A DNA stretch of 21,837 nt from IMG/VR virus record IMGVR_UViG_3300021960_000595, positions 1 through 21,837 of that record. One strand, 5' to 3'. This stretch comes from a virus. How positions within the stretch are numbered: position 1 is the stretch's first letter; each line of letters opens with the position of its first letter. Below are positions 1,154 through 15,486 of this stretch, in pieces. The position numbers and the translations under genes were made by a program. Under the pieces are notes generated by a model, which did no database searches, had not been told where the DNA came from, and saw only the letters and a list, made by a program, of their open reading frames with translations.

Positions 1154-3142
1154 TCATCCCCTGAGTCCTGAGTTAGAATACCGATTCATTTCACGGTTAA
1201 TCTTTTCTCCTAGTTTTCTCGCTAGTTCATTAAGTTCTTGGTCTGTTGCACCCACACGTCCATTGACCGAAACGTTGATTGTATTTCCTCCCATGTTTCG
1301 AGTCTGTGTATTGTTTAATACGCTTGTTCCAGCAGGGAGGAATACGGCTTCAGGACCACGTTCACCTACTGTAAATACACCACCAGTTCTAACCGTTCCA
1401 CCACTAGCCATACCAAGAATATTTCGTCCGTCTTTATCGTATCTAAACCCAAAATTTTGTCCAATATTTCTTCCTAATCTTTTAGTTTTTGCAGATACGA
1501 GGTCTGTTATACCTCCTTGACTTTCTTGTTGATAAGCAAGTTGGATTGCATCTTTGCTAGCCTGCCTTCTTTCAGGACTCAAAGGACCCAAAACTAATTC
1601 TCTTCCTTTTTGATACAAACCATTTAAAGCACCGAGTAATATTATCATTTGAGCACTAATAGCCATTACGATAATACCTACAAGTATTTTACCTATTCCT
1701 AATAAAACCTTACCTATCATTAGAGCAAATTTTTCTACTAAATTTCCAAAAGCGTCTACAAGCCCTTCTCCTTTATATAGAGCAGATAATACGTCAAAAA
1801 TAGCAATAATAAAGTCCTTAATACCCATGTAAATATCAATTACACCACTCAAAAATAAATTAAATCCTTCTTTCCAAATTTTACCAAAGATACCCTCTTT
1901 CCACATTTTAATAATACCGTCTAATACCCCACTTGTTTTTAATAGATAAACAACAGCACCTAATAAACTAACCCAAAGTAATACTTGTCCAAAAAGTAAA
2001 GCACCTTTACTAACAAAAGAAAGAATCATTTTTAAACTTCCACCTGTATAAAATTTTTGAACACCTTCAACCGCTTTATTAATTTTTCCTTGAATTAGAT
2101 TTTTAGCCTTTTTAAGAGTATCAACACCAAAGACTTTATACCATAAAGGTTTATCATCATTCTCTCTATCAGGGGCTTCAGACAAATTAAGATATTCTTC
2201 ATCATCAGAAATCTCATACCCTTTTTTAGCCAACGCTTTTTTAGACTCTACAATATCCCCTGTAAGAACAGCATCTTCTTCTGTTAATTCTAATAGAATT
2301 AATTCTTGTGCTTCTTGTTGTTCTGCTCTAAGCCTTCTTTTTTGTTGAAGTTTTCTTAATTGTCTTCGGGCAATCATTGTTTCTTTTCCTGAACTTGGTA
2401 ATTTATCAATTAATTGTTGTTTCTCTTCAATTTGAGCGTCATATTTATCTAAAGCGACTTCACCCTTAGTTACCATTCCTTGAATTCTACCCTTTCTTTC
2501 TCTTACTTCTCTTCTTCTATCTTGAGCAAAAACTAAATCTGCCCCAATTTCATAATCCATCCCTCTTAATCCTTTAAAAAATCCAGAGTTTTCTCTTACG
2601 ATATCTCCCCTAGAAATACCTCTACTCTTTCTTCTAAGTCTAGCAGAACTTTTTCTCAAAAATTGTGCTCTTTCTTCAATTTTCTGCATACCCTTAGCCA
2701 TTTTATAACGTTGAATCATAAATTTTACATTTTTGTCTTGTAAAATGGTTTCTTTTTCTAAGGTTGAAATTTCTCCATCTCTTAATTTTCCAATATTTTG
2801 AAGTAGCCTCATAGATTGTGTTTGATAAGTAACAACCATGTCGGCAGTTCTCATAGCCGCCGCATCAGATTTCGCTTCCTTTTCTCTCGTTTGATTAATT
2901 AATTTCAATACGAAAGCAATAGAACGAATATTTGCTTCAACACGGTGGAATCCTGTTCCGACCGACATACGGCTAATAAGGGACCAAACAGTTCCGGCCC
3001 TATTACCTGAACCTGTAAGTGTTGAACCCTTTTTAATAAAGTCCTCAGTAGCGGCAGAAACTTGTCCAATGGCTTCGTTAAAGTCAAGGGTTTCCCTCTT
3101 TAACTGTTTCATATTCCTTAAAACAGCCTCTAAATCAGCCAT
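1154..3142 (-). CDS. Tail tape measure protein
   Basis: This 662-residue protein sets tail length and is threaded through the tail tube; by the usual 0.15 nm per residue it predicts a tail near 100 nm. Residues 1-310 are helical and highly charged, with coiled-coil stretches around 205-310. Hydrophobic, membrane-like segments lie at about 371-402, 428-456 and 472-508. The C-terminal region has the hallmark of tape measure proteins: GGTVRTGGVFTVGERGPEAV at 581-600, then a small beta region and a final amphipathic helix. The ATG at 3142 overlaps the stop of the preceding chaperone frame by eight bases and has GGTGA upstream. The position directly after the frameshifting chaperone pair fits the family. 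The repeat [MI]WKEG occurs at residues 414-417 and 422-426. Confidence 0.93.
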   Translation of the reverse strand: MADLEAVLRNMKQLKRETLDFNEAIGQVSAATEDFIKKGSTLTGSGNRAGTVWSLISRMSVGTGFHRVEANIRSIAFVLKLINQTREKEAKSDAAAMRTADMVVTYQTQSMRLLQNIGKLRDGEISTLEKETILQDKNVKFMIQRYKMAKGMQKIEERAQFLRKSSARLRRKSRGISRGDIVRENSGFFKGLRGMDYEIGADLVFAQDRRREVRERKGRIQGMVTKGEVALDKYDAQIEEKQQLIDKLPSSGKETMIARRQLRKLQQKRRLRAEQQEAQELILLELTEEDAVLTGDIVESKKALAKKGYEISDDEEYLNLSEAPDRENDDKPLWYKVFGVDTLKKAKNLIQGKINKAVEGVQKFYTGGSLKMILSFVSKGALLFGQVLLWVSLLGAVVYLLKTSGVLDGIIKMWKEGIFGKIWKEGFNLFLSGVIDIYMGIKDFIIAIFDVLSALYKGEGLVDAFGNLVEKFALMIGKVLLGIGKILVGIIVMAISAQMIILLGALNGLYQKGRELVLGPLSPERRQASKDAIQLAYQQESQGGITDLVSAKTKRLGRNIGQNFGFRYDKDGRNILGMASGGTVRTGGVFTVGERGPEAVFLPAGTSVLNNTQTRNMGGNTINVSVNGRVGATDQELNELARKLGEKINREMNRYSNSGLRG

Positions 3143-3332
3143 GTTTATTCACCTTTTTTTCCATAGCCTTCATTTCCATTTCCTTAGAAATAGAATGAAT
3201 TAATAATAAATCCCTAACCTGAGTATAAGGCATTTCATATGCCTCGGCGGGACTAATATGTAGTTGGGATGCTAAGATATATAAACTTATCCGAGAAGCC
3301 ATTATTGGGTCATCAATTTCACCCTTAATCAA
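3135..3332 (-). CDS. Tail assembly chaperone, T-type frame (probably expressed by -1 frameshift)
   Basis: This 65-codon frame sits between the G-type chaperone and the tape measure, the position of the lambda T region. It overlaps the G-type stop by four bases and lies in the -1 frame. Its only start at the border is TTG at 3332. An ATG lies ten codons in at 3302, and GGGTGA occurs downstream of the TTG and not before it. The frame stays open upstream to the T TTA AAA heptamer at 3356-3350. I therefore think it is mainly made as the C-terminal extension of the upstream protein, giving a fusion of about 190 residues. The predicted product is helical and charged, with KEMEMKAMEKKVNKHG at the end. 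Independent initiation cannot be excluded. Confidence 0.75.
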   Translation of the reverse strand: MIKGEIDDPIMASRISLYILASQLHISPAEAYEMPYTQVRDLLLIHSISKEMEMKAMEKKVNKHG

Positions 3333-3706
3333 GGCTCGCTCGTATCTTCTTTTAAATCGGCATCATCCCCCATATCGAATGGGTCGGGAAGGATATCCTT
3401 AATTTGATTACCCACATAAGGACTTAATCGCAATAACTCAACACTTGTAATCTTTGGTTCAGTTCTATCAACGAAGGCTTCCCATAGATATTTAAACAAA
3501 CGGTCCATTTCCAAACTAATATCATCAGTTCTCGAGTTTAGGTTTAGCAACTTTGCCTGAGCCTTTTCCAATTGTAGGAATGTAGGTTCCTTAATCCAAA
3601 TCTTGAGGTATTCATCACTCCCCGGCGCAACACGAATGTAGTGTAGGCGGCTTTCGGTCGGTGCAAATAAACTAGTCTTATCAGTTACAGTCTTCTTATC
3701 TTCCAT
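3329..3706 (-). CDS. Tail assembly chaperone, G-type
   Basis: This 125-residue acidic protein is encoded between the tail tube and the tape measure genes, the conserved place of the lambda gpG-type chaperone that coats the tape measure during tail assembly. Residues 30-110 form an alpha/beta then helical domain (KIWIKEPTFLQLEKAQAKLL, LFKYLWEAFVD), ending in an acidic tail. The ATG at 3706 has GGGGAG about ten bases upstream. Near the end of the frame lies a slippery heptamer that moves ribosomes into the next frame. I see no sequence signature beyond size, composition and position, but the frameshift architecture makes the call strong. Confidence 0.8.
   Translation of the reverse strand: MEDKKTVTDKTSLFAPTESRLHYIRVAPGSDEYLKIWIKEPTFLQLEKAQAKLLNLNSRTDDISLEMDRLFKYLWEAFVDRTEPKITSVELLRLSPYVGNQIKDILPDPFDMGDDADLKEDTSEP
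3350..3356 (-). promoter_or_regulatory. Programmed -1 ribosomal frameshift site
   Basis: On the minus strand the heptamer is TTTAAAA, read in the zero frame as T TTA AAA, which fits X XXY YYZ exactly. It sits seven codons, counting the stop, before the end of the G-type frame. The -1 frame is open from here through to 3135. A Shine-Dalgarno-like GGGGGATGAT lies at 3371-3362, with its G run ten bases before the heptamer, as in bacterial stimulators such as dnaX. A short possible hairpin (CCTT-GATT-AAGG) follows fifteen bases downstream. Confidence 0.8.
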
Positions 3707-3761: not shown

Positions 3762-5375
3762 TTAACCCTGAAGAGGCCAATAGGTGACTAATTCACAATC
3801 GTCCATTGAAAGCGGTGTAACAGTCCAAGTTACAGTAATAGGTCCGTTATCGTTAGTCAATTGGAAATCCACGTCTTGAACGTGGTAGTCACGGAAACGG
3901 AGGTCGAGGGACTCACCGTTTTCTTTGTCGAATCGGAGTTTGACTTCAGCAGTATCAGCAGTTCCGTTGGGTGTTAAAGCAAAGGCGTGTTCTTGACGGA
4001 AGTAGTCAAACAAGTCTGCGTTTGTAACAAGGCCTGTAAAGGATAGGCTATATGTGCGTTGTGTAGCAAATGCGTATTGACTACGCTTGTCGTGTTTGCC
4101 GATAAACCTACGTTGCTGAATACCGTTATCAATAGTGAGAGTAAAGTTTTCTAATTGAATGAATTCTTCACCGAAAAGTTCTACTGTTCCGTCTGAGAAG
4201 AAGAATGGGCGCATTAGAGGCTCCATAACATCAGCCGCATATTCGGTGCTTCCTGATTCAATACTTCCACGGCGAGTTCCAAAGTTTACGAAGTGTGTAA
4301 TATCAGTTTGTCCATTGTTTGTTTGATAACCGGCAGGGGCTACAAAAGTATTCTTGGGTAAAATATCCACACTACATTCAATTTCTTGTCCGGCTTGAGC
4401 GGTCATAGATAAGTTTCCTACAACACAACCGGGGTAAATTTTACAGTAAACATCTTCTTTATCCGCATCGGTAGCAGAAGAAGCGAATGAATTAGGCTTA
4501 CGAAGAACGTATTCTAATGCAAAGGAAGGTAGGTCTTCACCATTGTTTTCACTAATTGTGTAGGTAAATAAGTCTGCGGCTGAGGATGAATAGGTTTCTC
4601 TAATAAGAGCGGGGGTAGCATCACCACTCATGCCTTGAGCGGGAGGGCATAAGTTACCCGAATGAATACGGTGTAATGTATCTCCATTCTTTTGATAAAT
4701 TTCATCATCAGCAACCGTAACGTCCCATACTGCCCCTCGACCCGGAGAAGTTTCAGCCCCTTCAACGGTAGTAACACTATCAATTGTTTTACTACCAAGA
4801 GCATAATATAACCAAGGGAAGGCATTTGCAAAAGTTGTAAGGCTTGCATTACTTGTGGTTTCTGCTCCTTTGAATTGATAAATAAAGTTTCGAGTGCCTG
4901 ATGCACCTACGTTAATTTGCTTAATATCAGTTGAAGTTGTGGGGATTGTAACTGCCGAGGCTAGACCAACCCAAGTATCTGATAACAATTGGGGGTTGCT
5001 AGCGTTTGTAGCGGGAACGGGTGCGCCAAAGTGACGAATAATACCATAGTGTTCCGTAGTTCTTGTATCACCTCTAATTAAATCTAATTGAGTGATAACT
5101 GCACTATTTAAATTAATTACTGAAATTGTAGTGGCCGCGTTTGAGCGAATCATGCAAGTATCTACTAAAACGTCAGATTCATTATAAATATCTAGGGTGC
5201 AACCTACATATAAATCTGCTAACAACTGAAAATTACCTGTAAAGTTAAAATTAATATCTAATACTGTTACACTATTTGTTGTTGTCTGTCCATCGAAATA
5301 TCCCAAGAAAATATCTTGTTCCGGAATCATCGAAACCATCGCGCCTGAGTCTAACCAAATTTCATTACTTGCCAT
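3762..5375 (-). CDS. Tail tube protein
   Basis: This 537-residue beta-rich protein lies upstream of the chaperone/tape measure block. The C-terminal half has the features of tail tube proteins: an ALEYVLRKPN strand, a strand pair with SMTAQAGQEIECSVDI, the segment VELFGEEFIQLENFTLTIDN, and a late strand reading RTYSLSFTGLVTNADLFDYF. The N-terminal part (roughly 35-105) seems to be an extra beta module (LYVGCTLDIYNESDVLVDTC). Many tail tube proteins are about half this length, so an inserted or appended domain, perhaps exposed on the tail surface, is likely. ATG at 5375 follows AAGGTGA. It would assemble as stacked rings forming the DNA channel. No sheath gene is seen nearby, which favours a non-contractile tail. 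Confidence 0.85.
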   Translation of the reverse strand: MASNEIWLDSGAMVSMIPEQDIFLGYFDGQTTTNSVTVLDINFNFTGNFQLLADLYVGCTLDIYNESDVLVDTCMIRSNAATTISVINLNSAVITQLDLIRGDTRTTEHYGIIRHFGAPVPATNASNPQLLSDTWVGLASAVTIPTTSTDIKQINVGASGTRNFIYQFKGAETTSNASLTTFANAFPWLYYALGSKTIDSVTTVEGAETSPGRGAVWDVTVADDEIYQKNGDTLHRIHSGNLCPPAQGMSGDATPALIRETYSSSAADLFTYTISENNGEDLPSFALEYVLRKPNSFASSATDADKEDVYCKIYPGCVVGNLSMTAQAGQEIECSVDILPKNTFVAPAGYQTNNGQTDITHFVNFGTRRGSIESGSTEYAADVMEPLMRPFFFSDGTVELFGEEFIQLENFTLTIDNGIQQRRFIGKHDKRSQYAFATQRTYSLSFTGLVTNADLFDYFRQEHAFALTPNGTADTAEVKLRFDKENGESLDLRFRDYHVQDVDFQLTNDNGPITVTWTVTPLSMDDCELVTYWPLQG

Positions 5376-6166: not shown

Positions 6167-7162
6167 TTAATCACCTTTGTAGTTTATGGACTGACGGAAT
6201 ATGTTATAAACGTTTCGTAATTCCTCAGGATTTGGGAATGCTGGAACGCCACCTTTGGTTTCAATAGAACTAATCCATTCATTCATTTCTTTAAAGAATT
6301 CACCTAATTTATTTGATGATTGTTGAATAGTATTTTCTACAATAAATTTACCCCAATTTGGATTATTACCATTTACTGTAACCTTGTCCTGTAATAGATT
6401 AATTAATTCATTCTTTTGACTTTCGTTCATAATAGAATTAGCATCAACCTCAGGCATTTTTTGTCTTCCTCTTCTAGCAAGAATTCTTTGGAAACTTGGT
6501 CTTTCTACTCTTGTTTCTGTTGAAGTAGTAGCAATATCACTTGCGCCTAACCCCATTTCACTTGCTAATAAATAATCGTATAGGTTTAAGTTATTTTCTT
6601 GAGAACTTTGAATCATTTCATTCAAGTTTTGCTTAACCATTTTACCTGTTTGTCTATCATAGGTATATCCAAAATTAGCGTCTTCAACTTCTTTTTTCCA
6701 TGTATCAAAGTCTTCCACTTCGTTCCAAACTTCGTCAAGATTAAAAGATTGAGGCATACTAATAATAATTTCTTTTAATACAGATGAAACAATAGCGGTA
6801 AGTAAATCTTCTTCATTATTTACTTGAGATTCAGGAAGTAGTTTAATATTTGTTCCAATAACACTTCTAAAATAATAATCCCCTTCTTCGTTTTCATTCA
6901 TAATAATATCAAAGGATTGTCTTTTTCCGGGTGCGTATTTATTTCTATACGTTACGTTATATGTTCTAGTTTTACCTACTACCCTACCATTTGGAGGATT
7001 AAATCTAACATATGAACGACGACCACCGCCCTTCGGTCCTTCATAAATTTCTGCAACTGATTGACTTAATTTTCTCCTTAATTCATTAATGAACATATCC
7101 ACATCAGAAACCACAAGGTCTACACCTGCTGACGTTTTAATCTTTAAAACATCAAACCACAT
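6167..7162 (-). CDS. Tagged protein 6: unknown 331-residue protein with W-x-D-V-L-K N-terminus
   Basis: The best start is ATG at 7162, four bases after GGTGAT, giving an N-terminus MWFDVLK; a TTG four codons upstream would place the ribosome site inside the gene. The body has an N-terminal alpha/beta domain of about 110 residues with a basic strand region (GRRSYVRFNPPNGRVVGKTR), followed by a helix-rich part with asparagine- and glutamine-rich stretches. Residues around RPSFQRILARRGRQKMPEV form a basic linker. There are no membrane segments or known catalytic motifs. It shares its N-terminal tag with the five annotated genes upstream, which suggests a common destination, possibly the virion. 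I do not recognise a family. Confidence 0.75.
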   Translation of the reverse strand: MWFDVLKIKTSAGVDLVVSDVDMFINELRRKLSQSVAEIYEGPKGGGRRSYVRFNPPNGRVVGKTRTYNVTYRNKYAPGKRQSFDIIMNENEEGDYYFRSVIGTNIKLLPESQVNNEEDLLTAIVSSVLKEIIISMPQSFNLDEVWNEVEDFDTWKKEVEDANFGYTYDRQTGKMVKQNLNEMIQSSQENNLNLYDYLLASEMGLGASDIATTSTETRVERPSFQRILARRGRQKMPEVDANSIMNESQKNELINLLQDKVTVNGNNPNWGKFIVENTIQQSSNKLGEFFKEMNEWISSIETKGGVPAFPNPEELRNVYNIFRQSINYKGD

Positions 7163-7167
7163 AGCAA

Positions 7168-7539
7168 TCACCAATTATAATTACAAGCCCAATACCCTGC
7201 CTTGGTTTTATCCTTCTTTTCATCACAGTTATGACGGGATTTGAAATTAGCCCTTCGCTTTGAATCTTTGTGTTGTAAGAAATCCTTATACCCTCTTGCA
7301 CCAAATTCCACTACACGGTATTTTCCATCCTGATGAGCCAATACACGATATTTCTTTTTGCTACCCTTAGGTGCTCTCTTAGGTTTATTAACACCGGGGA
7401 ATTTTTCACCACGATACTTCACCCCACCTTTGACTCTTTCAATTTGAGGTTTTTTATTTCCGGCCTTTTCCACGTCTTCATCGTCACATGAATTACAGCC
7501 GCACCCACACCCTTTAAGAATATCTTTCCAATCAGACAT
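7168..7539 (-). CDS. Tagged protein 5: Cys-cluster plus small basic marine-virus-type domain
   Basis: This 123-residue protein starts with ATG at 7539 after GGGAGG and overlaps the previous stop by eight bases (ATGTCTGA). It begins MSDWKDILK, then a cysteine cluster (GCGCGCNSC, residues 10-18), an acidic spacer, a lysine-rich linker, and a C-terminal domain with FGARGYKDFLQHKD followed by RRANFKSRHNCDEKKDKTKA and GYWAC. That last pattern resembles a small domain that recurs in uncharacterised proteins of marine phages and algal viruses (I believe the DUF5754 type; not verified). The cysteines could bind a metal. Its tag is identical at DNA level over 18 bases to that of the gene at 8996. Confidence 0.78.
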   Translation of the reverse strand: MSDWKDILKGCGCGCNSCDDEDVEKAGNKKPQIERVKGGVKYRGEKFPGVNKPKRAPKGSKKKYRVLAHQDGKYRVVEFGARGYKDFLQHKDSKRRANFKSRHNCDEKKDKTKAGYWACNYNW

Positions 7540-8002
7540 AAGCAACCCTCCCTTCTTCTTCTCTAAAATATGATAATGAATCTTGAATTAAATTAATAAT
7601 AGGGGAATTAGGACCATGACCTTCGCTTCTATACATTCTAAGTAATTCTTCAAGTGTTGGTTTTACATCATCATCATCTGTATCAAAAAGAAGCATTCTT
7701 AATTTTTGTGCTTCCTCATTTACATTATTATTTAAATTTTGAATGAAAAACTTTCTTGCTTTTTTAGAAGTTAATGCATCATACGCTTTTAGGATAGCGG
7801 TAGCACCTGCACTTTGAAGACTTTCAACAGTTGAATTAATATATTCAAAAATTTGTTCCATTGGTTCTTTATTTTCTAAGGCTTCTTTAATAGCACCTAA
7901 TGTGAAAATTAATTGATTCATAACTTCAACGATTTCTTCTTCGTCCTCATCATCAGGGGCTTCGATATCAACCTTGAGAAGATTTTCCCAACTTACCACC
8001 AT
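7532..8002 (-). CDS. Tagged protein 4: acidic helical protein of unknown function
   Basis: The start is most likely ATG at 8002, after AGGTGG; a GTG three codons upstream lies within that ribosome site. The 156-residue product begins MVVSWENLLK, followed by a strongly acidic segment (PDDEDEEEIVEV) and then continuous helices, including LIFTLGAIKEALENKEPMEQ. The C-terminal part has another acidic patch (DTDDDDVKP). I recognise no family. Unlike the basic tagged neighbours it is acidic, so the shared tag and not overall charge is what unites the set. It ends with an eight-base overlap into the next tagged gene. Confidence 0.75.
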   Translation of the reverse strand: MVVSWENLLKVDIEAPDDEDEEEIVEVMNQLIFTLGAIKEALENKEPMEQIFEYINSTVESLQSAGATAILKAYDALTSKKARKFFIQNLNNNVNEEAQKLRMLLFDTDDDDVKPTLEELLRMYRSEGHGPNSPIINLIQDSLSYFREEEGRVAYV

Positions 8003-8088
8003 TTCCACCACCTAATTTTAATACCATTACGGTATACCTGTTTATCTAACACGTCACTAATATATAAATCTAACCAAGCGTCACGCAT
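7993..8088 (-). CDS. Candidate 31-residue microprotein
   Basis: ATG at 8088 follows directly after the TAA of the upstream gene (TAAATG), with a GGGGG run nine to ten bases upstream. The frame ends with TAA at 7995-7993, overlapping the next start by ten bases. It exactly fills the only gap in a cluster where all other genes overlap or abut. The peptide has an N-terminal amphipathic stretch (MRDAWLDLYISDVLDKQ) and a C-terminus rich in tryptophan and basic residues (IRWWKWW), unusual for random sequence in AT-rich DNA. Function unknown; a membrane-interfacial peptide is one guess. Confidence 0.45.
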   Translation of the reverse strand: MRDAWLDLYISDVLDKQVYRNGIKIRWWKWW

Positions 8089-8430
8089 TTATTTTCCCCC
8101 CTTTCCCCAAGTCTTTCCTCTTCCTTTTTGATTACAAGCACCGGGCGTTGGCCTACATTCAGGGTATTCGCTTCTTTTTTCACCTTCTGCTCTTCCACAA
8201 GGTTTGCATTTCTTACGCCCGTTTTTATCCTCACGACAGGTATTGCAATCAATCCATCCACCTGTGCTTCCTTTAGCACCTTTACGACCGAACCAATCTG
8301 AAAGAGATTTCTCAGAAGAAGGCTTCGCAGTTAATTTCTTTCTTTTTTTTCGAGCCTTGCCCGGTTTTCTTGTGCGACCGCGTGACTTCTTTCGCTTGCG
8401 CTTAAGAACTTCCTGCCAATCATCAGTCAT
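8089..8430 (-). CDS. Tagged protein 3: lysine/arginine-rich protein with seven-cysteine domain
   Basis: This 113-residue protein has ATG at 8430, overlapping the previous stop by eight bases (ATGACTGA); a TTG nine codons upstream is a poorer start. It begins MTDDWQEVLK, continues with a very basic stretch (residues 11-36, mostly K and R), and ends in a domain with LSDWFGRKGAKGSTGGW, then CNTC, KKCKPCGR, YPECRPTPGACNQKG and GKTWGKGG. That domain is a type I recall from uncharacterised marine virus proteins (perhaps DUF5872; unverified), and its spaced cysteines suggest metal binding. Charge and size suggest a nucleic-acid-binding protein. Confidence 0.78.
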   Translation of the reverse strand: MTDDWQEVLKRKRKKSRGRTRKPGKARKKRKKLTAKPSSEKSLSDWFGRKGAKGSTGGWIDCNTCREDKNGRKKCKPCGRAEGEKRSEYPECRPTPGACNQKGRGKTWGKGGK

Positions 8431-8620
8431 TTGAATTACCCCAGTTATCTGCACCAACTTTACGACATTGAACTAAAGCACCGGAAGCATAGGCCGAGGG
8501 CCACTTTTTATATCTACTCTTAACTTTGTAATAACAAGCATCGCGCTTTACATTCTTTTTCTGTTTCTTACGGCGGGCTTTCTTTTTATTAGCCTTAAGC
8601 ATTTCCCACCATTCATCCAT
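8423..8620 (-). CDS. Tagged protein 2: very basic small protein with marine-virus-type domain
   Basis: This 65-residue protein starts with ATG at 8620 behind GTGAT, which contains the previous stop. It begins MDEWWEMLK, followed by a lysine/arginine block (residues 9-25), then ACYYKVKSRYKKWPSAYASG and ALVQCRKVGADNWGN. The last 40 residues match from memory a short domain widespread in marine phage proteins of unknown role. With about a third K/R residues it is a candidate for binding packaged DNA, as T4 internal proteins do. This is inference from charge and tag only. Confidence 0.78.
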   Translation of the reverse strand: MDEWWEMLKANKKKARRKKQKKNVKRDACYYKVKSRYKKWPSAYASGALVQCRKVGADNWGNSND

Positions 8621-8624
8621 AAAA

Positions 8625-8996
8625 TCACAACCAAGTATTTAAGTCACCAAGGATTTTATGTTGTTCCATAATATCCTTGTAATATTTATCATTTTGTTTT
8701 CCGGCTCTAACAATAGCAATCGCGCACTTATCAACGAATAATTTTAATTGTTTACACGATAATTTACTAACCATTTCTCTATCTTCTCTTGTAAATTTCT
8801 CTAAACCCTTAATATGTAAATTATGCAGGTTGCTACGGACTACAAGATTAGCCCTTGCACATACATTTCTATAACCGGGGTCGTCATTTGGAACAATCTT
8901 ATCCGCATTTTCGATTGTATCGAGTAAGATATATTCATCAGTTTCTACAACAATTTCACCTTCTCTAGGTTTAAATTTAAGAATATCTTTCCACAT
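8625..8996 (-). CDS. Tagged protein 1: unknown 123-residue protein, MWKDILK N-terminus
   Basis: ATG at 8996 lies four bases after the stop of the connector gene, with GTGAT overlapping that stop. The N-terminus MWKDILK carries the tag with no residues between Met and Trp. The body starts with short strands (GEIVVETDEYILLDTIENAD) and continues as helices with three cysteines (VCARANLVV, LSCKQLKLFVDKCAIAIV). There are no membrane segments or known motifs. It is the first of six annotated consecutive tagged genes and lies right after the head-tail connector candidate. Confidence 0.75.
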   Translation of the reverse strand: MWKDILKFKPREGEIVVETDEYILLDTIENADKIVPNDDPGYRNVCARANLVVRSNLHNLHIKGLEKFTREDREMVSKLSCKQLKLFVDKCAIAIVRAGKQNDKYYKDIMEQHKILGDLNTWL

Positions 8997-14222: not shown

Positions 14223-15476
14223 TCACTCCAAATCAATAATCTTGCCTTGTCCACGGAAGTAAGTGCACATTGTTTCGCCAATGGTTCGGTAAAGTCCACG
14301 GTGTCCGAGTTTGCCGTGGCCGAATACATCAGCACCAACGCCACCCTCGAAATACTCGGTTGGCTTTAAGGTGCAAAGGAACAAGTGGTCGGTGTCTAGA
14401 ACCAACATATCACTTAGACCTGTGCGGCCAGACTTCGGCATATCCTTTGTGGGGATAATTGGGATGTCGTGGTATGTTGCAACACGGAAACCTACTTGGC
14501 GACCTTCAACACCCTTGATACCTGCGTGGGACGGAACGATTTCCGAGCGACCCATGAAACGTTCTTGGGCTTGGAGTAATTCACCGAGAACCTGAATGGT
14601 GTCGTAGCCGGTTAGAATTACCTTAGGTTCAGCACCGCGAGCCATTAAGTCACGGAGCATTGTGTTTAGAATGTTCACAGTTAATGCACGGTCTGTTCCA
14701 CCGTTTTCATCAACGAGAGATTCTAAGTGTTCAGCACCAGTCGAAGCACGGGTAGAACCGTAAAGGTTTAGGGAGTTTGTAAATAGACCATTTAACTCAT
14801 CGAAGTTGGAAATAATCTGATACAAAGAGGTTAAACCTTGTAGGGGGTTTCCGGTTGATAGACCACGGTAGGTGGAGTCTGCTAGACCATCGGTTGAGTG
14901 AAGGTCAGTTAGCACCATCTTGTTCATAGATTCAGCGTGAGAAATACCGACTTCTTCGCGGTAGTTTCGCATAAGGTCGCCAATGCCGTCGTCAAGACCA
15001 GCCATCAATTGTGCAATTTCCGAAACTTCGAAAGAGTGTGCAATTGTCTTGGGCGAAACGCTGAGAACATCGTATTCGGGACGGACGTTTAGAATGGTCG
15101 AAAGAGATTCGTTCTCATCAACACCACCAAGACCCAAAGAGGACTCGTAGCCTGTTCCGCTAACATCGAAAGCGAAGGTATCACCGCCACCACCGATTGC
15201 ACGTTCCTTTAGGATTCTCCAACCCGAGGACTTCCAAGGCTTCTTGGGAAGCATGGAAAGTGCGTTAATTTCACGGTTAATCATAGACCATACTTTTTGT
15301 CCGTAAACAAGGTTGTATAGTGCGGGAACATCAGCCGCGCCGGTTTGTGCGCCGTCGTGTGTTGTGTGAATCCCTTCTGTGATTACCTCTGTATATGCTT
15401 TGCTAATGCGGCCATTGTCGCCAAGACCGTAAGTAGCGCGTTCTAAGTCTGCAATTGTATTAAAATATCCTGTCAT
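14223..15476 (-). CDS. Major capsid protein, HK97 fold
   Basis: This 417-residue protein is chosen to start at ATG 15476, because the in-frame GTG nine bases upstream is part of the GAGGTGA ribosome site. The N-terminal arm is short (about 45 residues) before VPALYNLVYGQKVWSMINRE, a segment typical of HK97-fold capsid proteins of archaeal and other tailed viruses. Later signatures are the long spine-helix region (about 150-190), the A-domain segment PKVILTGYDTIQVL, and the C-terminal strands DIPIIPTKDMP and SDMLVLDTDHLFLCTL. No large N-terminal delta domain is present, consistent with a separate scaffold encoded just upstream. Base composition is richer in G+C than its neighbours, as expected for a very highly expressed gene. 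Confidence 0.92.
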   Translation of the reverse strand: MTGYFNTIADLERATYGLGDNGRISKAYTEVITEGIHTTHDGAQTGAADVPALYNLVYGQKVWSMINREINALSMLPKKPWKSSGWRILKERAIGGGGDTFAFDVSGTGYESSLGLGGVDENESLSTILNVRPEYDVLSVSPKTIAHSFEVSEIAQLMAGLDDGIGDLMRNYREEVGISHAESMNKMVLTDLHSTDGLADSTYRGLSTGNPLQGLTSLYQIISNFDELNGLFTNSLNLYGSTRASTGAEHLESLVDENGGTDRALTVNILNTMLRDLMARGAEPKVILTGYDTIQVLGELLQAQERFMGRSEIVPSHAGIKGVEGRQVGFRVATYHDIPIIPTKDMPKSGRTGLSDMLVLDTDHLFLCTLKPTEYFEGGVGADVFGHGKLGHRGLYRTIGETMCTYFRGQGKIIDLE

Positions 15477-15486
15477 TTTTTTCACC

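Follow-up and report, generated by a model that had tools for sequence, protein, structure and literature searches.

Organization of the G and T Frames

The window analyzed here is a DNA stretch of 21.8 kb, comprising positions 1 to 21,837 of the IMG/VR record IMGVR_UViG_3300021960_000595. On its minus strand, two overlapping frames, called G and T, are located between a tail tube gene and a tape-measure-like gene. The features referred to below are as follows.

3329..3706, minus strand: G frame, gpG-like tail assembly chaperone of 125 aa with an ATG start and a TGA stop (family alignment)
3362..3371, minus strand: SD-like element GGGGGATGAT (anti-SD pairing profile, GGG/GAG codon bias)
3350..3356, minus strand: slippery heptamer T_TTA_AAA (direct reading; equivalent heptamer in 104/104 loci)
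3135..3350, minus strand: predicted -1 extension into T, 71 residues past the slip and a stop (PHROG 9001, alignment)
3292..3342, minus strand: predicted 3' stem-loop (folding z-scores; near the register of the covarying stem of A-type relatives)
3762..5375, minus strand: tail tube protein (PF18906 Phage_tube_2, E 2.4e-12; phrog_290)
1154..3142, minus strand: tape-measure-like protein, 662 aa (phrog_8892, E 1.2e-4, a weak match; position and length)
14223..15485, minus strand: major capsid protein (phrog_24667, E 9e-29; tblastn matches to archaeal viruses only)

The heptamer TTTAAAA (3356-3350) is read in the G frame as GAT-TTA-AAA and is followed by GAA GAT ACG AGC GAG CCT TGA, six sense codons and the stop. 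After a slip of one base, the -1 frame would continue as AGA AGA TAC GAG CGA (RRYER, then on as RRYERALIKGE...), and this frame is open to 3135. The initial annotation had placed the heptamer at these positions, seven codons including the stop from the end of G, with an open -1 frame behind it and a predicted fusion of about 190 residues, 119 of them from G. Direct reading reproduces all of this, and the predicted fusion recounts to 119 + 71 = 190 residues. The SD-like sequence was likewise found where it had been described, with the G run at 3371-3367 ending 10 bases before the heptamer. Ahead of the conserved T core, the only T-frame starts in the window are the border TTG at 3332, already noted at that stage, and an ATG at 3302, and neither has a ribosome site. 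The 3' stem-loop, the published precedent in haloarchaeal viruses, and the relatives with a -2/+1 arrangement were absent from that annotation.

Probable Tail Assembly Chaperone Genes of an Archaeal Virus

The assignment of the two frames to a tail assembly chaperone pair, proposed from the sequence alone, is borne out by profile matches and by the neighboring genes. For T, all 22 family members match PHROG 9001 (tail assembly chaperone), the window T with an E value of 1.2e-4. The match of G is partial: phrog_25860 (tail assembly chaperone) is matched by 8 of 18 family members, with a best E value of 1.2e-7, and the window's own G gave no match to tail assembly chaperone profiles. A fold search of the predicted G model (pLDDT 72, moderate) against the PDB returned no match. 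The order tube, G, G-T, tape measure also holds in the window, with Phage_tube_2 upstream and the tape-measure-like protein downstream; no relative of the tube or tape-measure protein was found in INPHARED.

The suggestion of an archaeal virus has likewise gained support. In a tblastn search of INPHARED, the capsid protein hit archaeal tailed viruses and no others, HVTV-1/HCTV being the best. Family B DNA polymerase is present in all 12 long relatives (64-98 kb), and two of these encode TFIIB-like factors, a family that matches archaea only among the control genomes. In the same 12 relatives, PCNA_N was found in none and the MCM search stayed below the cut-off. The window itself is a fragment and carries an ATP-dependent ligase. 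Magroviruses are viruses of marine Poseidoniales (PMC10768690, PMC10160649). The group is marked by an HK97 capsid of archaeal type, akin to that of Druskaviridae, by its own family B polymerase with further replication genes of archaeal type, and by genomes of about 90-100 kb. The capsid matches, the polymerase, the TFIIB-like factors and the size of the long relatives fit such viruses, compared here by their published description, and the window virus is therefore described as magrovirus-like. The scan of GTDB for host links yielded a single contig bearing the G-T pair, L118 (NZMJ01000011.1), in a MAG labelled Maricaulis (Alphaproteobacteria). Maricaulis was rejected as a host, since this is most likely a mis-binned viral contig, and the host assignment thus rests on the capsid and polymerase evidence.

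Two further groups of genes in the window are worth recording. Six tandem genes at 6167-8996 on the minus strand encode otherwise different proteins that share the N-terminus M(0-4)W-x-x-[ILVM]-[LI]-K (MWFDVLK, MSDWKDILK, MVVSWENLLK, MTDDWQEVLK, MDEWWEMLK and MWKDILK). Such N-termini occur in 27 of 1,246 ORFs of the window and its relatives, against 0.17 expected from the interior frequency, and the motif is perhaps a shared tag for packaging into the capsid. The stretch at 7168-8620, between the head and tail genes, encodes small proteins rich in Lys/Arg and Cys, some of which show CxxC-like motifs.

Conservation of the Slippery Heptamer

IMG/VR was scanned with G, with the G alignment, and with the T of one relative, and a pattern scan was added. 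In the resulting set, G occurs together with T at 104 distinct loci, among them the window and one locus from GTDB. A canonical in-frame X_XXY_YYZ is found at the end of G in all 104, whereas elsewhere in G this pattern occupies 69 of 8,970 in-frame positions (about 0.8%); the heptamer at the end of G is beyond chance. The heptamers are TTTAAAA (31 loci), AAAAAAC (29), AAAAAAG (21), and GGGAAAC (15), followed by the rarer GGGAAAG (4), GGGAAAA (2), AAAAAAA (1), and GGGAAAT (1). Conservation of T_TTA_AAA in relatives had been proposed as a check; the slippery site is conserved, and its sequence switches between TTTAAAA, AAAAAAC/G and GGGAAAN.

The residues encoded vary with the heptamer class (LK, KN, KK, GN, GK), so what is kept is slipperiness and not the protein sequence. 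In the tree of G-T, TTTAAAA loci form a single supported group (100/99) that includes the window, and about 12 changes are needed to account for all nine classes. One relative, L060, has a longer G end and an AAAAAAA heptamer 52 bases before the stop, and is the sole relative with the site well inside the overlap.

The Upstream SD-Like Element

Pairing was computed against a general archaeal 16S 3' end, AUCACCUCCUA; the host's anti-SD is assumed to be the same. Immediately before the heptamer, the duplex with the anti-SD has a mean energy of about -9.5 kcal/mol, compared with -0.2 +/- 1.25 elsewhere along G. Codon choice points in the same direction. At the core of the element, Gly is encoded by GGG in 39/42 cases, compared with 12% of Gly codons elsewhere in G, and Glu by GAG in 25/25 cases, compared with 17% elsewhere. 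GGGGG and GGAGG thus interchange at an amino-acid cost. In most relatives, 7 bases separate the G run from the heptamer; the window has an extra codon that brings this spacing to 10. On this pairing and codon evidence, the 5' Shine-Dalgarno-like element is conserved in the G-T family.

The Downstream Stem-Loop

In the window, the predicted stem begins 7 bases past the heptamer. Its outer part pairs CGAG.GAGCC (3342-3333) with GGCTTCTCG (3300-3292), and its inner part pairs GGGT (3324-3321) with ACCC (3310-3307). Folding was scored on the 60 bases starting 4 after the heptamer, with dinucleotide shuffles and with synonymous codon shuffles that hold the protein constant. The window stem has an MFE of -18.1, with z = -3.6 against the former and -3.0 against the latter. 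For the family, the mean z is -2.5 against dinucleotide shuffles (control stretches about -0.6) and -1.87 against synonymous codon shuffles (control stretch -0.47). The effect against synonymous shuffles is strong at A-type sites (z = -2.9 and -3.1, control about 0), while the TTTAAAA clade shows on average no excess (mean z -1.1, control -1.25).

Covariation gives a similar picture. Among 31 A-type relatives, a stem of 15 + 4 pairs in one fixed register covaries with a score of 0.312 and 64 double-changed cells versus 27. Shuffled controls reach 0.209 +/- 0.014 (0/500 attain the observed score) and slid registers at most 0.177; because the register was taken from single folds of those same 31 sequences, the slid-register control is lenient, but the shuffle control is unaffected. 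RNAalifold predicted zero pairs on the downstream alignments because these were too mixed, and the fixed-register count then supported the A-type stem and not that of the TTTAAAA clade, where the covariation test of the 3' stem was negative. The register of the window stem nearly coincides with that of the covarying A-type stem. Since the stem of the TTTAAAA clade has neither covariation nor a mean excess over synonymous shuffles, its role in the window is uncertain.

Access to the T Frame

Taken together, the conserved heptamer, SD-like element, and open -1 frame agree with the -1 frameshift that the initial annotation had read here, and the two frames very probably encode the gpG and gpG-T of a long-tailed, magrovirus-like archaeal virus, the latter made by -1 slippage. 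Most ribosomes would terminate at the G stop and produce G alone. A minority would slip back one base on T_TTA_AAA, where tRNA-Leu would re-pair on TTT and tRNA-Lys on AAA, and would continue in the -1 frame to give the 190-residue G-T fusion. The slip is probably aided by the upstream GGGGGAUGAU, which would base-pair with the 16S rRNA 3' end, and probably by the downstream stem-loop too. By analogy with lambda, G would coat the tape measure protein and T would recruit tail tube subunits, so the slip rate would set the ratio of G to G-T.

The alternative that fares best, though still very unlikely, is that T is a separate small protein with its own start (TTG 3332 or ATG 3302) coupled to the G stop, the heptamer being a by-product of coding for Leu-Lys. 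The TTG at the G/T border of the window and an ATG adjoining the G stop in some A-type relatives would suit it. However, ATG, GTG, and TTG are all absent from the T frame before the core in 39/76 non-redundant relatives, and in 20 of 25 members of the TTTAAAA clade. The refuting case named in the initial annotation, relatives lacking a heptamer and having a strong T start, did not turn up: the heptamer was present in 104/104 loci, and 39 of the 76 relatives have no possible start. A ribosome site is also lacking before the T starts, whereas the Shine-Dalgarno element is kept at the heptamer, and a Leu-Lys by-product is at odds with a heptamer that switches class and remains slippery as the residues change (LK, KN, KK, GN).

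Still less probable is transcriptional slippage on a homopolymer run, which would yield two mRNA populations. The A6-A7 runs of A-type relatives would permit it, but T3A4 in the window and its clade and G3A3 in others are too short for polymerase slippage, and both the 3' stem and the conserved SD-like element are signals that work on the ribosome. That G and T are truly one continuous frame broken by a sequencing or assembly error can be practically dismissed: nothing was found in its favor, and the same frame break recurs, in differing sequences, across roughly one hundred contigs drawn from many metagenomes.

Relatives with T in the +1 (-2) Frame

T occupies the +1 (= -2) frame of G at 12 distinct loci, 8 of them below 93% identity (L077, L084, L088, L109, L112, L122, L127, L129, L130, L133, L142, and L143 make up the 12). 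T follows CAGGAGGATGA(A/C)GAAAAAAAGGA, with an A7 run that has AGGAGG upstream, and in nearly all 12 the -1 frame shuts immediately (GGA TGA). The codon after the A7 slip is AGG (Arg), which is aligned with the first T residue of other relatives. A comparison of L109 (GAAAAAAAGGATGATTAGG) with its sister L156 (GAAAAAAAGGAATGATTAGG) is informative: the latter has the same SD element, A7G, and one more A in the spacer, and its T is in the -1 frame. The subgroup apparently arose by a one-base deletion between the slip site (the A7 run) and the 3' stem. In the G-T tree it is nested among -1 relatives, compatible with one or more origins.

The A7 run would let both tRNAs re-pair two bases back. It is fairly likely that the size of the frameshift has changed within this one family of archaeal viruses, with T of the subgroup accessible solely through a -2 (or +1) shift and that of its sisters, which share the SD element and the A_AAA_AAG heptamer, through -1. 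A +1 shift on the same A7 run may operate instead, and its product would differ by one Lys. Initiation of T may also occur in the subgroup members that have an ATG beside the G stop; L088, unlike the other members, is without it, so start coupling there cannot be general in the subgroup. A shorter spacer raises the -2 share over -1 in an HIV cassette, and tailed phages use -1, -2 or +1 for the tail chaperone gene (PMC5009743), which makes a change from -1 to -2 plausible. Phage Mu likewise expresses its tail chaperone by moving into the +1/-2 frame, the route suggested for the A7 relatives, but it is a bacterial myophage with a different site, and its shift is -2, whereas that of the subgroup would be -2 or +1. 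As far as is known, a -2 variant would be new for archaeal viruses.

Comparison with Known Systems

According to two reviews (PMC8211752, PMC5009743), -1 frameshifting of G/G-T in HVTV-1, HCTV-1, HCTV-2, and HCTV-5 was published in 2013. In the records of HVTV-1, HCTV-1, and HCTV-5, the genes stand in this order too, and G is annotated alongside a joined CDS for G-T. Like the window virus, these Druskaviridae (HVTV-1 gp129/gp130, HCTV-1, HCTV-5) are archaeal tailed viruses with G/G-T between tube and tape measure, and their capsid protein is related to that of the window. Their heptamers, G_GGA_AAG or G_GGA_AAC, both occur in the window's G-T family, and HVTV-1 and HCTV-5 carry GGAGG 10 bases upstream of the heptamer. 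The G and T profiles of the window family weakly match G and T of HVTV-1/HCTV-5 (14.3 and 12.2 bits in a very small search). In contrast, the sequences have largely diverged, the window heptamer is T_TTA_AAA, and the SD-like pairing of the haloviruses does not stand out clearly from the gene's GC-rich background.

The lambda gpG/gpG-T pair resembles the window in its gene order, in a low-level -1 slip near the end of G, and in its T-domain fusion (PMC5009743). It differs in its bacterial host and in its heptamer. To our knowledge, descriptions of the lambda site do not include a stimulatory SD element. Bacterial dnaX combines an SD-like element, an A_AAA_AAG-type heptamer, and a 3' stem-loop in the same order as A-type relatives, whose covarying 3' stem completes the three parts of the dnaX signal. 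The gene is unrelated and bacterial, and the window differs from it in its T_TTA_AAA heptamer. All three dnaX-type parts are present in the window, with the 3' stem not conserved through its TTTAAAA clade.

Implications for Archaeal Recoding

The mechanism is already known from phages and salt-lake archaeal viruses, and the predicted site in the window adds to those cases. None of the papers covered by the literature search reports the frameshift site in magroviruses; the ICTV profile of Aoguangviridae marks the TAC gene and gives its translation as unknown (PMC10768690). Few cases of recoding are known from Archaea: a 2021 review lists, for -1, a single studied example (fucA1) besides a handful of viruses of haloarchaea (PMC8211752). 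The present family adds about a hundred sequence-supported cases of archaeal frameshifting, in abundant marine archaeal viruses, and annotators of such viruses should join G and G-T. With its SD-like stimulator, the covarying stem of A-type relatives, and a heptamer that has been swapped repeatedly, the family makes the rules of archaeal frameshifting testable with natural variants. If the proposed readings are true, they would extend SD-stimulated frameshifting to Archaea, and the -1 and -2/+1 relatives would form a natural series for studying what sets the slip size on archaeal ribosomes.
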